Made by a program: the position numbers and the translations under genes. A DNA stretch of 62,317 nt from Bacteroidia bacterium (lineage in GTDB: Bacteria > Bacteroidota > Bacteroidia > SpSt-205). The stretch spans positions 1-62,317 of the forward strand of contig JANZYW010000003.1 of assembly GCA_026413325.1 (NCBI GenBank), read 5' to 3'. The notes below the pieces were generated by a model. It was given only the letters and a program-made list of their open reading frames with translations. It was not told the origin of the DNA and ran no database searches. Each line of letters starts with the position of its first letter. The stretch's first letter is position 1. Positions 22,597-28,987 of this stretch are shown in pieces.

Positions 22597-22670
22597 GGGC
22601 CTGTAGCTCAGATGGTTAGAGCGCGACACTGATAATGTCGAGGTCCGTGGTTCGATTCCACGCAGGCCCA
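22597..22670 (+). tRNA. tRNA-Ile (GAT anticodon)
   Basis: 74-nt cloverleaf: 7-bp acceptor GGGCCTG/CAGGCCC, D-loop TAGCTCAGATGGTTAGAGC, anticodon loop CTGATAA with GAT, T-arm GGTTCGATTCC. CCA is not encoded. Confidence 0.97.
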
Positions 22671-22683
22671 CTACTCAATCTTG

Positions 22684-22756
22684 GGGGAGTTAGCTCAGTT
22701 GGTAGAGCGTCGGCTTTGCAAGCCGAAGGCCAGCGGTTCGAATCCGCTACTCTCCA
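22684..22756 (+). tRNA. tRNA-Ala (TGC anticodon)
   Basis: 73-nt cloverleaf: acceptor GGGGAGT/ACTCTCC with the alanine identity pair G3:U70, anticodon loop TTTGCAA with TGC, T-arm GGTTCGAATCC. It lies 13 nt after tRNA-Ile and is presumably co-transcribed. CCA not encoded. Confidence 0.97.
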
Positions 22757-22806
22757 CCCTCCCCTCTAAAAGCCTTCTTATCCACAGATTATATTCAACT
22801 GCCTGT

Positions 22807-22828
22807 ACAGGGGAGGATACGCCCCTGT
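22807..22828 (+). terminator. Possible hairpin after the tRNA pair
   Basis: Inverted repeat ACAGGGG / CCCCTGT with an 8-nt loop, 50 nt beyond tRNA-Ala and just before the next promoter. There is no U-tract, so terminator function is uncertain. Confidence 0.4.
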
Positions 22829-22837
22829 CCTAACCTG

Positions 22838-22845
22838 TATATTTG
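22838..22845 (+). promoter_or_regulatory. -7 promoter box (TATATTTG) of the propeller-HflX gene
   Basis: Exact match, 6 nt before the ATG at 22852. An in-frame TTG at 22843 lies inside the box and is rejected as a start. Confidence 0.7.
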
Positions 22846-22851
22846 CTTTGG

Positions 22852-25800
22852 ATGAAACATAGTATGACCTGGAGAGAGAGTAGGTATCAATCCTATCCTT
22901 CTCTGTGCCCGATAGTATTATCTATACAGATTGCAAGTCTTGTTTTCTTCTGCCAAGCTCAGACGCCTTCCTGGCAGGCTTCTGTCCCGCGAGGTGCTGC
23001 TATAGACCTATTACCTGATGGAAATCTTTTAGTAATGGCTGGGAAAGAAGGCGTATACGCTGTTTCTTCCAAAGATGGCCAGAAACTTTGGCACTGCAGT
23101 GCTTGCAATCGAGCTGGCTCGAAGGAGTGGCGACAAATACAAAATCTTCCCCTGTGGGAGGCGGGAAGGTTGCTCCTGGGCCCTCCAGGAGTGTCTGGAG
23201 ACAGTTTGAGGCGGCTCTATCCCGACTGGTGGAGCCGTCCCTACCTACTGCTCAATGCAGCTACGGGTAGGTTGATCTTCGATGCAGAGCAGGAGCGGCG
23301 AAGCTGGAGTGTAGTGAGTGGACGCGCAGTTTTACCTGAGCAGGGTACATTGATACTATTCGGCCTGGGACCTAAAGAACCCGGGCGCTTTTTGTCTACA
23401 GAGACTTCTATCCTTGCAGCTTATGATCTGCGTAGTGGAAGTCAGCTTTGGCGCCGACCTGCGGGCGAAAAAGCAGCTTTAGAAAACTTACAAAGCAATT
23501 TGGCAGCTTTCGAAGGAAGGGTGTATTTCCTCACCAATAAAGCCCTCTATGCCGTCGAAGCTCGAACTGGAGCCCAACTCTGGCGAGTTCCTATCGTGAA
23601 AGATTTTAGCCTCCGAGCCACAACAGGTACTTACGTCTTCGTGGACCCAGAAAAAGATTTAGTAGTTGCTTTCGGACGGGGACGTATAGTCGCTGTACAG
23701 CGTAGCAGCGGCCAACCTGTCTGGAGTAAGCCTGTGAATGTTCCTCGAGATAATATCTTGCACGCATTTAGTACGTCTGCAGGGATTCTTTTATTTACAG
23801 ATGACCTCACACCAGGCTCCCCGAATCGACCTACTGGCCGCAATCTTCTCTCCCCTCCCCTGGCTCTCTTGCTTCGATACGAAAGCGGGGAAAACGTCTG
23901 GGGAGAGCGTCTGAAAACCCCAGGTTTACTTGCTGGGTACATTCCACTCACAGAAAATCGCCTTTTTTGCCTCTTCCAACGCGAGCGGTTCTGGAGCTCT
24001 GGACAAGGTCGCCCTGAAGACTGGGCAGCGGTAGAAATAGATGTATTAGACATTCAACGGGGCCAATTCCTCTTTAAGAATCCCCTTCGACTTCAAGGAG
24101 CGCTTCTTACTGCCCAGAATGTACCAGGGGGATTTTTGGTACAGACTGCCCGCCGAATTCAATATCTCAGTGAGGAAGGCCAGGTTTTATGGGAAAAACC
24201 TATTCGTCGACCCTTTCGGCTCCCATTTGCAGTGCGAGACGAAGGAGGCGTATTTCAAGCCTATTTTATCGATGAGGGTGGCCAGCTGTACCGATGGGAT
24301 GGTCCTGGGCGGGAGCCTCAATCAATAGGCAAGCCTTTATCTGCTTTTCTCTCCGACCCTGCACAAGGCATAGCCTGGGAAAAAGGAAAGTTATACGTAT
24401 GGGGAGGTTCCAGTTTATACCTTCTCACTTCAGAAGGAGACATCCTGTGCGAGTTTCGGCGCCCTCCCCCTGCCTACTCCCCTGCCATACGACTCCTTGG
24501 CACTACGATAAGCATTGCGGGTTATGCCACTTCCGCCTATCTAACTTACAAAGCCCTTCAAACCTTATCTTACGACCCCGAAAGAGAATGGGACAGACCC
24601 GATCAAGCTACCTCCCTCCGACAGGCTCTCACAGCAGCTGGATATCTAACAGGAGCCGTAGCCACCGAGTTCATCGCTGATGTCTCCTGGGAAGCCATAG
24701 TCAAAAGACGCCAGACTCAAATAAAAGACATAGAAAATCATGCATTCCTCTTAGGAATGAACAAAAACAGTGCTATATTCTTTATCTTAGATAAGACAAC
24801 ATGTGAAGTCAAAGGACAAACAGATTTAGGGCCGCTTCGGCTCTTTCAATCCCTGGAGATGGAAGTCGATCCCTTGGAAAAGCGCGTCTATGTGTTAGAT
24901 GATGAGCAAATCCTGGCTTTCGAGATGCCTGGGGGAGTCAGGAATCCCCCCCCCCTACTTCGAGCGCTGGTTATCCGCATCCAAGGGCCGCTGGAAAGCC
25001 CAGAACAAAGTGAAGAATACGTAGAGGAACTCCTCTTTCTGACGAGAAGCGCTGGCTATGTCGTCTCTCATGCTCTCTCTTATTCGTGGAGAAGGCCTGA
25101 CCCCGCCACTTTTCTCACTCGAGGGCGAGTAGAAGAGATCTTGGGCTTCTTACGGGAACGAGAATCAGAAATAGACTTCATTCTCGTAGATGCTGAGCTT
25201 TCCGCCGTACAAGTTCGAAACTTAGAAAAAACATGGAATAAGCCAGTAACAGACCGAGAAGGGCTCATTTTAGAAATTTTTGCCCGAAATGCTCGTACAG
25301 CTCAAGCGAAAGCCCAAGTTGAGTTAGCACGATTGGAGTACGAGCTGCCTCGGTTAGCGCATCGATGGACCCATTTATCTCGGGAACGGGGAGGCATTGG
25401 CTTGCGAGGGGGAGGAGGGGAGCAACAGCTGGAGACCGATCGTCGCAAAGTGCGGCAGCAGATCGCGCGACTTCGACAGAAAGTGGCCGAGTTTCAACGT
25501 CAAGCGGAAATCCGACGAGAACGGCGAGAAAATCTCCCCCGAGTCGCTCTTGTAGGATACACAAACGTGGGAAAATCGACTCTCATGCGGCTCATCACCA
25601 AATCCCCCGTTCTCGTCGCTGATCGGCTCTTCGCTACGCTCGATACCACCACCCGTCGAGTAGTCTTAGATGGGATGGCCTTTCTTCTCTCTGATACGGT
25701 AGGATTCATCCGGAAACTACCCCCTACCTTATTAGAGGCTTTCCATACAACTTTAGAGGAGGTTCGAGAAGCGGATCTTCTCCTACTCGTCGTAGATGCC

Positions 25801-26079
25801 AGCTCCCCTGGCTATCTGGAGCAGATCCGCACTGTAGAGCGGACGCTTGAAATGATAGGAGCGGCTCATATCCCCATTCTCATCGTAATGAACAAGATCG
25901 ATCGCTTACCTCCCGAGCAGAAGGAGCTATTAGAAGAAAGTTGGCGAGCCCAAAGCGCATATCCCACTGTTTTCCTTTCAGCTACCGAGAAGTATAATGT
26001 AGAACAGCTACATCGCCAGATCATAGAGCTTCTCCGTGCTCTCCCCCGCTACCAGAAACAAATTCCCTCAACTGTATGA
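22852..26079 (+). CDS. hflX: Beta-propeller protein fused in frame to GTPase HflX
   Basis: One 1075-residue frame with two unrelated halves. Residues 1-690 carry a signal-like helix (IVLSIQIASLVFFCQAQ), then PQQ/WD-like propeller repeats (AYDLRSGSQLWRRP, AVEARTGAQLWRVP, AVQRSSGQPVWSKP) and two hydrophobic stretches near residues 545-605. From about residue 692 (ATG 24925) the frame is a complete 384-residue HflX: the N-terminal nucleotide-binding domain, the Gly-rich GGIGLRGGGGEQQLETDRR linker, G1 GYTNVGKST, G3 DTVG and G4 NKID. HflX splits stalled or damaged ribosomes in the cytoplasm, which conflicts with an exported propeller. The junction lies at a C10 run (24946-24955), so an indel may have merged two genes. 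Domain calls are firm; the fusion is not. Confidence 0.75.
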   Translation: MKHSMTWRESRYQSYPSLCPIVLSIQIASLVFFCQAQTPSWQASVPRGAAIDLLPDGNLLVMAGKEGVYAVSSKDGQKLWHCSACNRAGSKEWRQIQNLPLWEAGRLLLGPPGVSGDSLRRLYPDWWSRPYLLLNAATGRLIFDAEQERRSWSVVSGRAVLPEQGTLILFGLGPKEPGRFLSTETSILAAYDLRSGSQLWRRPAGEKAALENLQSNLAAFEGRVYFLTNKALYAVEARTGAQLWRVPIVKDFSLRATTGTYVFVDPEKDLVVAFGRGRIVAVQRSSGQPVWSKPVNVPRDNILHAFSTSAGILLFTDDLTPGSPNRPTGRNLLSPPLALLLRYESGENVWGERLKTPGLLAGYIPLTENRLFCLFQRERFWSSGQGRPEDWAAVEIDVLDIQRGQFLFKNPLRLQGALLTAQNVPGGFLVQTARRIQYLSEEGQVLWEKPIRRPFRLPFAVRDEGGVFQAYFIDEGGQLYRWDGPGREPQSIGKPLSAFLSDPAQGIAWEKGKLYVWGGSSLYLLTSEGDILCEFRRPPPAYSPAIRLLGTTISIAGYATSAYLTYKALQTLSYDPEREWDRPDQATSLRQALTAAGYLTGAVATEFIADVSWEAIVKRRQTQIKDIENHAFLLGMNKNSAIFFILDKTTCEVKGQTDLGPLRLFQSLEMEVDPLEKRVYVLDDEQILAFEMPGGVRNPPPLLRALVIRIQGPLESPEQSEEYVEELLFLTRSAGYVVSHALSYSWRRPDPATFLTRGRVEEILGFLRERESEIDFILVDAELSAVQVRNLEKTWNKPVTDREGLILEIFARNARTAQAKAQVELARLEYELPRLAHRWTHLSRERGGIGLRGGGGEQQLETDRRKVRQQIARLRQKVAEFQRQAEIRRERRENLPRVALVGYTNVGKSTLMRLITKSPVLVADRLFATLDTTTRRVVLDGMAFLLSDTVGFIRKLPPTLLEAFHTTLEEVREADLLLLVVDASSPGYLEQIRTVERTLEMIGAAHIPILIVMNKIDRLPPEQKELLEESWRAQSAYPTVFLSATEKYNVEQLHRQIIELLRALPRYQKQIPSTV

Positions 26080-26549
26080 ACAATAATTTCTTATTATTGC
26101 TTTTGTTCCCTCTCATCACACTGAGCCAGTCGATGAGTGATTCCATTCAAGTTCGACGCGTACAGCGCAGTCTCTTCATCCATCTTGGAGGGTGGGCTGG
26201 GGCTGGGATCGCTACAGGTACCTGGCAGACCCTCTCCCGCAGGAATACTATTACCCAGTACATGGGATATCAAAATCTAGCCTGGGGAGGAGTCAATGCT
26301 GCTATTACCGTCATCGGAGCGATCTCCTCCAGAAAGCAAGCAAAACAAATGATAGATTGGTCAGCGAACAAACAGAGACTTCGCCGATGGCTATGGATAA
26401 ATGCAGGCTTAGACTTGGGGTATATGGCTGTGGGTACGTTTTTGGCTACTCGGCCAGATCCCCGTCTCAAAGGAACGGGATACGGGGTCATTCTGCAAGG
26501 GGGAGGCCTTTTCGTTCTGGATGCGTGGCACGCACTTCGGCTTCGATAG
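26076..26549 (+). CDS. Small membrane protein, unknown function
   Basis: 157 residues with a signal-like start (FLLLLLFPLITLSQ) and hydrophobic helices at about 30-47, 67-85 and 107-125. Segments such as QNLAWGGVNAAITVIG and LWINAGLDLGYMAVGTFLATR recall a Bacteroidota family of DUF6992-like membrane proteins, but I am not certain of the match. It overlaps the hflX stop by 4 nt and is probably co-translated. Confidence 0.6.
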   Translation: MNNNFLLLLLFPLITLSQSMSDSIQVRRVQRSLFIHLGGWAGAGIATGTWQTLSRRNTITQYMGYQNLAWGGVNAAITVIGAISSRKQAKQMIDWSANKQRLRRWLWINAGLDLGYMAVGTFLATRPDPRLKGTGYGVILQGGGLFVLDAWHALRLR

Positions 26550-26580
26550 CGTAGCATTTCGCTTTCTGGACGTGAAAGGG

Positions 26581-26616
26581 AGCCTGTGTGCAGCATCGCC
26601 AAAGGAGATGCAGGCT
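26581..26616. terminator. Weak hairpin between convergent genes
   Basis: AGCCTG...CATC pairs with GATGCAGGCT, with a 7-nt bulge in the left arm, and TTTCTCT follows on the plus side. It lies in the 95-nt gap between convergent genes and may serve either. Confidence 0.3.
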
Positions 26617-26644
26617 TTCTCTAACGCATTTGAAACGTTCTATC

Positions 26645-28987
26645 TTAGGGCAACCATTTTATCCTACACCACGAGAAGCGATACTGAGAACCCACTCGGA
26701 CCCAAAAATGCAGTGTCGTATCTATGGGAGGAGGAGCATACCACCGGACCTGTCCGATCCGCTGCCATCCGATCGTGTCGTGCCCTACCCCCCACAGCAG
26801 AGGAGTAGGAGGGCTACTTCTCGCCTGTAAGGGAAGGCGTCCTTTTCGACGAGAGAGCCACAGTGTACTTCCACGAGGAGGAAAGTCTACTTCCACCTCC
26901 AGCCCAGGACACGATGGGGCGTGGGGAGGAAGGTCTATCGTGTCGGGGCTCCCTCCAATCAGTCCCCACGGTACATTAGGAAATGCAACCCTCTTAAGCT
27001 GTAGACCACTCGTATCGCGGGGAAGACAAAGCTCACAATAGCTAAAAGAAGCGTTCTTCCACAATACGCGGGTATGCCTACACACAGGTAGGATACTACC
27101 TTCTTTCACTCGCCAGGCTTCAAGAGAGGCACTGCAGCTTTCTCCTATGCGATGCCCCGTAAGAGGGCAGATACGGACTCTCTCTACACAAAAGGGAGGG
27201 GACTCTTTCTTTCCTTCCCCCAAGAGAGCGGTTATTTCCTGCGCAAGGGGTAGAGCTACAAGAGAACCTTTGAGACAACCACTGGGAGAAGCATCAGGAT
27301 TTCCTATCCATACCCCCACCACATACCGGCTGTCATATGCGATACACCATGCATCTCGCAGCTGCGCAGAAGTTCCTGTTTTGTAGCTCCAGCCATCTTC
27401 CCTGCAGAGGATACCCCGAACTATCCAAGGCCCTCCTTTCCCCCATACAATACGCTTTTCAGGCGAATCGGAAGCCTTTCGGCGGAGACGAATCCATACT
27501 CCCCCACTTGCCAGGGCAGTATAGGCCTGAACTATATTGAAAAGAGAGGCCTCCGCTGCACCGACTATCACCGCATATCCCCCTTTTCTCGAAAGAACAA
27601 TACCCAGCGCTTCCATCGTGGAGAAAAAAGATTCAAGCCCCACCTGTCCCAGCAGATCAACCGCTGGAGCGTTAAGAGAGTAGAAAAGAGCTTTTGAGGC
27701 ACTCACGAGACCTTTGTACTCCCTCCGTTGGAAGTTTACAGGTGTATAGCCTCTATAATCTCGAGGCCAGTCCAAGAGGGGAGTCTCCGAGTGGATGATC
27801 CCCTGCTCTAAAGCTTCTGACCACAAAAAGGGCTTGAGTGTGCTGCCAACTGCGCGAGGCGATCGGATAAGATCGATCGCACAAGAAGAATAGGCGCTAC
27901 TGGGTACGTAGGCTCGCACCTTTCCCGTCGTCACTTCAGCTATCAGTACGGCTCCTTCTTGGATACCACATGTACGCCAGAAGTGAAGATATCTTAGGAG
28001 ACGACGGCGTACCTCCTGTTGTAGAGGATTCTCTATGTATAGGGTATCTGTGGATGAAAAGATGGGGGGGAGAACATGGGATTCTAAGCGGGGGCAAGAA
28101 TGCCTCTTAGGTCGCAGATAGGTGGAAATAGCCTGTTGATATACTGCTGCGGATAGGAAGCCGGCTTGGTACCAACGATGGACCCAGCCGAGGGCCTGCT
28201 CTCGGAATCCAGGCTCCCCCTTTTCAAAGGACCTACGCAGACGAGGACGCTGAGATACCAGCAGCAAAGAAGCGATTTCCAAGGGGGTAAGCCTGTCGGC
28301 TCCTTTCCCAAAGTACCGCAAAGCCGCAGCTTCTATACCTTCTATGTTTCCACCAAAAGGGGCATAGGTCAGATAAAATCGCAGGATATCTTCCTTCGTA
28401 TATCGAAGCTCCAGTCCAAAAGCCCAGAAAATCTCCTTGAGCTTTCTTCCGAGAGTACGAGGACCTGGACGCCACAGACGAGCAAGTTGCATAGTCAGCG
28501 TAGATCCGCCTTGGCGTTCTCCGAGGAGAGTCTTACCCAAAGCACGGACAAGTGCAAAAGGATTGACACCTATGTGATACCAGAAAGCCTTATCTTCTTT
28601 GTAGAGCAAGAGGGGAGCCACCCGTCGAATAGTTGCCTCATTGGGAGGAAACCGCCACTTCCCATCGGCCGAAAGCGATGAGTGAAGGAGATTCCCTTTA
28701 TCGTCATACCATCGAGGGCTTAGAGGAGGAGGGGAAGGAGCCGCCTCCCAAGCAGCCCCCAAGAGGAGAAGAATACCTAAAAGCCCATATACCCCCGCCT
28801 CTATCCACGAGACCGACTCTGTGCCAAGAAGGCGCCTTATGAGGACATACTTTTTCGGCCCAGCGGCCGCCGCCACAGGCGGCGGCCGCCCAACCCTAAA
28901 CAAACCAGCACCAGAATCACCAAAGCACCCCAGCCCCCACACAAGACAAAAAACAAGCCCCTCCTCTACATCCCCCCGCCACTTCAT
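26645..28987 (-). CDS. pbpC: Penicillin-binding protein 1C
   Basis: Bifunctional murein synthase, up to 780 residues. After a hydrophobic anchor (VYGLLGILLLLGAAW) comes a GT51 glycosyltransferase domain (YKEDKAFWYHIGVNPFALVRA, RQGGSTLTMQLARL). A transpeptidase domain follows with Ser-x-x-Lys in GSTLKPF, SLN in YSLNAPAV and KTG in YKTGTSAQLRDAW. A C-terminal BiPBP-type domain contains the PLTGHRIGESC region. It follows the alpha-2-macroglobulin gene, as in E. coli yfhM-pbpC. The first 45 residues (Gly/Val/Cys-rich, then a Pro/Ala run encoded by a GC hairpin) are not family-like, so the true start may lie further in; no clear ATG exists there. Confidence 0.9.
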   Translation of the reverse strand: MKWRGDVEEGLVFCLVWGLGCFGDSGAGLFRVGRPPPVAAAAGPKKYVLIRRLLGTESVSWIEAGVYGLLGILLLLGAAWEAAPSPPPLSPRWYDDKGNLLHSSLSADGKWRFPPNEATIRRVAPLLLYKEDKAFWYHIGVNPFALVRALGKTLLGERQGGSTLTMQLARLWRPGPRTLGRKLKEIFWAFGLELRYTKEDILRFYLTYAPFGGNIEGIEAAALRYFGKGADRLTPLEIASLLLVSQRPRLRRSFEKGEPGFREQALGWVHRWYQAGFLSAAVYQQAISTYLRPKRHSCPRLESHVLPPIFSSTDTLYIENPLQQEVRRRLLRYLHFWRTCGIQEGAVLIAEVTTGKVRAYVPSSAYSSCAIDLIRSPRAVGSTLKPFLWSEALEQGIIHSETPLLDWPRDYRGYTPVNFQRREYKGLVSASKALFYSLNAPAVDLLGQVGLESFFSTMEALGIVLSRKGGYAVIVGAAEASLFNIVQAYTALASGGVWIRLRRKASDSPEKRIVWGKGGPWIVRGILCREDGWSYKTGTSAQLRDAWCIAYDSRYVVGVWIGNPDASPSGCLKGSLVALPLAQEITALLGEGKKESPPFCVERVRICPLTGHRIGESCSASLEAWRVKEGSILPVCRHTRVLWKNASFSYCELCLPRDTSGLQLKRVAFPNVPWGLIGGSPDTIDLPPHAPSCPGLEVEVDFPPRGSTLWLSRRKGRLPLQARSSPPTPLLWGVGHDTIGWQRIGQVRWYAPPPIDTTLHFWVRVGSQYRFSWCRIKWLP
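28863..28889 (-). repeat. Perfect GC-only hairpin at the 5' end of pbpC
   Basis: 12-bp perfect inverted repeat GCGGCCGCCGCC / GGCGGCGGCCGC around a 3-nt loop (ACA). Every stem base is G or C, unlike the surrounding composition. It codes for Gly-Arg-Pro-Pro-Pro-Val-Ala-Ala-Ala-Ala in the annotated frame and may control pbpC translation or transcription. Confidence 0.7.

Follow-up and report, generated by a model that had tools for sequence, protein, structure and literature searches.

HflX is a ribosome-rescue GTPase that acts as a free protein in the cytosol, where it splits 70S ribosomes. The described proteins of this family (TIGR03156; structures 5ady, 8vio, and 8a57; PMC4770234) are the closest known counterparts of one half of the locus considered here, and the BamB-like PQQ-repeat beta-propellers are those of the other half. 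The way in which the two halves meet has its counterpart in gene pairs coupled by an ATGA overlap, at which termination–reinitiation has been established (Huber et al. 2019, PMC6728339).

The window, that is, the whole stretch of DNA analysed, is a complete contig (C69) of 62,317 nucleotides belonging to a draft genome of 2.19 Mb (135 contigs, 99% complete) of a Bacteroidia bacterium, and the junction sequence is known from this one draft assembly of the species. On its forward strand, the frame at 22852–26079 runs for 1075 codons without a stop and comprises a propeller (residues 1–691) and an HflX (residues 692–1075). The gene order and the neighbour are those of the ATGA-coupled pairs, and the overlap itself is found in the relatives and at the hflX/DUF6992 junction of the window; however, the propeller/hflX pair of the window has no stop between 22852 and 26077, which makes termination and restart impossible and would lead ribosomes to read through. 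Similarly, the HflX half resembles the described proteins in being complete and three-part, with all of the G motifs, but where the hflX genes of the relatives begin at an ATG, that of the window is preceded by a continuous frame of 691 codons. It is this missing stop between the propeller and hflX that sets the window apart. The explanation that we consider probable is a species-specific loss of the stop in a translationally coupled pair, in other words, a tolerated accident rather than a conserved bifunctional protein.

The propeller gene (22852–24924, forward strand) is assigned on the basis of the Pfam PQQ_2 repeats, the identity to congeners, and an AlphaFold2 model. PQQ_2 (PF13360) matches residues 133–305 with an E-value of 3e-20 and 73.3 bits, above the gathering cut-off of 27.6; a hydrophobic N-terminal segment occupies residues 18–36; and the identity to eight congeners is 45–61%. 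The model is an all-beta propeller (pLDDT 73.7, pTM 0.75) whose best fold matches include BamB structures. The likeness to BamB thus lies in the repeats and the fold, whereas the window propeller is longer, carries a low-confidence helical insert, and falls far below the BamB equivalog cut-off (TIGR03300: 47.8 versus 285.2 bits). The insert (residues 543–627; 24478–24732), which is partly hydrophobic, lies between the blades and the last strands and is kept in the congeners; it could be a hairpin that sits in the membrane or binds a partner. The last beta-strand in the predicted secondary structure comprises residues 686–691 (24907–24924, forward strand), and its final codon adjoins the hflX ATG; in the model, the propeller fold is complete at residue 691, the codon before Met692. 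A scan of genome contigs gave only a weak match to the propeller, in a Bacteroidales MAG. This match, the type of promoter, and the DUF6992 neighbour suggest a placement in Bacteroidota.

The hflX gene (24925–26079, forward strand; ATG at 24925, stop TGA at 26077–26079) encodes a complete HflX GTPase of 384 residues, which passes the TIGR03156 profile with 391–395 bits against a cut-off of 216.75 and which shows the Pfam domains GTP-bdg_N, GTP-bdg_M, and MMR_HSR1 at residues 721–1015 of the joined frame. The original prediction of a propeller fused in frame to a complete HflX was therefore borne out, as was its remark that the compartments of a signal-bearing propeller and of HflX conflict. 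Alignment with the relatives, to which the window HflX is 69–77% identical, shows that the G1–G5 motifs (GYTNVGKST, DTVGF, NKID, SA) are kept, and the length of its branch, 0.23, is the median; a decaying hflX is ruled out by these intact motifs and this branch length. There is no second copy of hflX in the genome, where the remaining matches are weak and limited to part of the GTPase domain.

The next gene, which encodes a DUF6992 protein (26076–26549, forward strand; Pfam PF22503, 9.8e-27), begins with an ATGA that overlaps the hflX stop by 4 nt. Apart from the propeller/hflX pair, six gene pairs in the window have such 4-nt ATGA overlaps, hflX/DUF6992 among them, which indicates that this style of overlap is usual here.

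Ten congeners were compared, seven of which (G001, G002, G004, G005, G008, G009, and G010) have both genes adjacent with a readable junction; the propeller of G009 is split over two contigs, a contig ends within the locus of G003, and no HflX match came from G007. In all seven, the order of the propeller and hflX is that of the window, and the two are separate genes with clear stops. Separate genes with clear stops in relatives were what the original prediction had itself named as a refuting outcome, and this outcome was observed; the idea, also put forward there, that two genes were merged is borne out. A misassembly of unrelated loci is ruled out by the gene order shared with the seven congeners, and this order, together with the conservation of both proteins, excludes an open frame due to chance. 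In five congeners (G001, G002, G004, G009, and G010), the propeller stop and the hflX start form an ATGA overlap, while in G005 and G008 the propeller stop lies 4 nt ahead of the hflX ATG. The propeller of every readable relative ends 2–5 residues past a conserved AY/AF (AY/VY) motif in the last strand. In the seven relatives, 11, 11, 14, 14, 14, 13, and 19 nt separate this motif from the hflX ATG, versus 3 nt in the window, where the spacer between the AF codons of the closing strand and the ATG is reduced to GAG (24922–24924, forward strand). The window is thus short of the 8–16 nt which, in the relatives, contain the final codons of the propeller together with its stop.

A different neighbour is found in G006, in which a coiled-coil-like ORF of about 162 residues (L040, 4424–4909) lies between the propeller and hflX, and it is with this inserted ORF that hflX forms an ATGA overlap. 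In G011, which belongs to another genus, hflX is in ATGA overlap with a TetR-family gene. Judging by these layouts, hflX is habitually coupled to whichever upstream gene adjoins it.

The fusion occurs in none of the seven congeners with a readable junction and in none of the other 147 genomes of the phylum (148 including that of the window, all of which have HflX); plasmid records gave no match. The next longest HflX frame, of 745 codons in G150, was rejected as a spurious GC-rich extension with no conserved upstream gene. The fusion is, then, a singleton and not a new fusion family.

How could the stop have been lost? In the ancestral state, the propeller gene and hflX would have formed one operon coupled by an ATGA overlap, as in most congeners, in which ribosomes ending the propeller can, by analogy with the characterized pairs (PMC6728339), restart at the overlapping hflX ATG. 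The final codons of the propeller and its stop would then have disappeared, for which one deletion would suffice, of 8 nt from an ancestor with an 11-nt spacer or of 11 nt from one with a 14-nt spacer; we infer both this deletion and the exact history of the events. Being divisible by three, the 3-nt spacer puts the hflX ATG into the propeller frame, where it encodes an internal Met, and no stop remains; any TGA belonging to an ATGA would, for the same reason, be out of frame. Ribosomes starting at 22852 would read through into hflX to give a propeller-HflX chain of 1075 residues, which follows from the sequence if the latter is right and whose N-terminus would route it to export. Such a locus would be a clean example of a tightly packed, frame-offset gene pair collapsing into one frame via a tiny loss of spacer. 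It would also caution annotators who find a secreted protein fused to a cytosolic GTPase in a single genome to consult relatives before naming a bifunctional protein. Production of the fused chain, if real, would reveal how a cell copes with a ribosome factor that bears a signal peptide.

A free HflX is probably still made from the ATG at 24925, to judge from the sequence. The original prediction had pointed to this in-frame ATG as a possible start, and its position matches that of the hflX starts in the relatives: it leaves, as they do, about a dozen residues ahead of the conserved LRALV block, in a stretch that varies in length and sequence among them. It lies 8–16 nt closer to the AY/AF motif than its counterparts and likely descends from them. 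No promoter-like box and no A at position −3 accompany it. A functional free form is favoured by the combination of a single-copy HflX, kept motifs, and a median rate. It would require either initiation inside the frame, at 24925, or cleavage of the fused chain; internal initiation and the fate of the fused product are what we infer for the cell.

As one possible cause of the merger, the original prediction named a run of ten C (MPGGVRNPPPLLRALV; 24946–24955, forward strand), which reads Asn-Pro-Pro-Pro-Leu in the variable N-terminus of HflX. The run is there, and an edit scan confirmed that one C fewer would bring a stop at 25022 and one more a stop at 25011. Nevertheless, the idea that a slippery homopolymer merged the genes did not hold, because the run starts inside hflX, 21 nt from the A of its ATG and downstream of the site at which the frames merge. 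It is missing at this site in all of the relatives. With ten C, the ATG at 24925 is in frame with HflX; with nine, the scan found no in-frame ATG, GTG, or TTG ahead of the conserved block; with eleven, HflX would start at 24899 or 24902 and the propeller would end after codon 720, giving a 114-nt overlap unlike that of any relative. With either nine or eleven, the propeller gains a tail of 29–33 residues, and altering the run by a single base never brings its end back to near residues 691–696. The edit scan and the comparison of the spacers together rule out a homopolymer miscount as the sole cause. The length of the run matters for hflX but has no bearing on how the stop was lost, and the stop-loss account has no need of the coincidence that places the run no more than 35 nt from the join.

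It might be argued that the consensus near the junction is wrong, in the length of the C-run or at a nearby base, and that the two genes are separate in the real genome. The junction is taken from one draft assembly of 135 contigs, there is a homopolymer close to the join, assemblies of congeners show odd poly-C/G stretches and end there, and substituting one base, at either 24922 or 24934, would give a stop near the end point seen in the relatives. However, the arrangement of the relatives is not restored by any single change in the C-run, and their spacer of 11–19 nt has gone as a block, which a one-base error cannot explain. Moreover, the genome contains 24 runs of nine or ten C, three of them of ten; of the 23 that lie elsewhere in it, 17 have at least 80 open codons to either side in their frame, which roughly indicates that run lengths of this kind are mostly correct in the assembly. 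We consider an error of this kind unlikely, albeit less so than the readings that follow. The C-run could instead be a phase-variable switch, with ten C giving the fusion and an internal start, eleven giving separate, overlapping genes, and nine turning HflX off. On paper, the three frames do act in this way, and long G/C tracts exist in the genus, such as a run of 16 G in a signal-peptide stretch and one of 11 G splitting the gene of a secreted protein, both in G006, so that phase variation is conceivable there. Against this, no relative has the tract at this site, the runs of nine or ten C in the genome are mostly deep inside long frames and not at gene starts, and we know of no precedent for the switching of a ribosome-rescue GTPase; a search of the literature gave no match for poly-C tracts that fuse genes in frame in a phase-variable manner. 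Overall, a miscount at the C-run is unlikely, and a switch there is very improbable.

Scarcely more probable than such a switch is a deliberate two-product frame, in which a propeller-HflX chain would be directed to the membrane or periplasm, a cytosolic HflX would arise from the internal start, and the ten-C run could toggle between the two forms, fused and separate. Least probable of all is a true, selected fusion, in which the propeller would anchor or target HflX or both functions would be required in one chain: both domains are intact and are joined exactly at their natural boundary, but the fusion is present in one species only, the 12-residue junction is not conserved, and the signal segment would export the chain from the cytosol, leaving HflX without a ribosome. 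The loss of the stop in a coupled pair is, therefore, the explanation that we retain.

Transcription of the pair may start just ahead of the propeller. A −7 promoter box of the Bacteroidota type (TATATTTG; 22838–22845, forward strand) is separated from the propeller ATG by 6 nt, in keeping with a near-leaderless mRNA; from the consensus (TAnnTTTG) and the box-to-start spacing given in PMC6847099, the start of this mRNA is predicted at about 2 nt upstream of the ATG. In a search of 22700–26700, TATATTTG was the sole such box. The resulting absence of any box between 22846 and 26700 rules out a promoter of this type belonging to hflX itself, so that hflX most likely depends on the propeller transcript. 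A box of the same type lies just ahead of the propeller ATG in six congeners (G010, G001, G002, G008, G006, and G009). Over the window as a whole, 32 TAHHTTTG boxes are found on both strands, 14 of which are followed within 2–10 nt by an ATG, versus 1–5 for permuted words, and most of these 14 ATGs open real ORFs. Near-leaderless mRNAs thus seem to be common here, unlike in Flavobacterium johnsoniae (PMC6847099). Upstream of the propeller, at 22597–22758, genes for tRNA-Ile(GAU) and tRNA-Ala(UGC) are paired outside any rRNA operon, and most congeners have similar tRNA sequence ahead of the propeller.

The genome of the window has no G or C run longer than ten. In G003, G005, G007, and G010, by contrast, there are very long stretches of poly-G/poly-C, of up to 31, often near contig ends (for example, L082 2161–2233, L084 2050–2090, and L086 2084–2155), and some are pairs of a G-run and a C-run; they could be debris of the assembly or genuine hairpin-like elements at which assemblies break. 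Two further runs come from the single-contig genome G006. At about 1501–1511 of L103 (C1: 581924–581934), an 11-base G/C run marks the place where two long frames of what is apparently a single secreted protein shift, making this a candidate for a phase-variable gene or for a homopolymer error. The signal-peptide stretch is a classic place for phase variation, and it is in such a stretch (LVGLLAGGGGGVAYAQ), in a frame of at least 546 codons, that the 16 G of L113 (1501–1516; C1: 1765147–1765162) are found.
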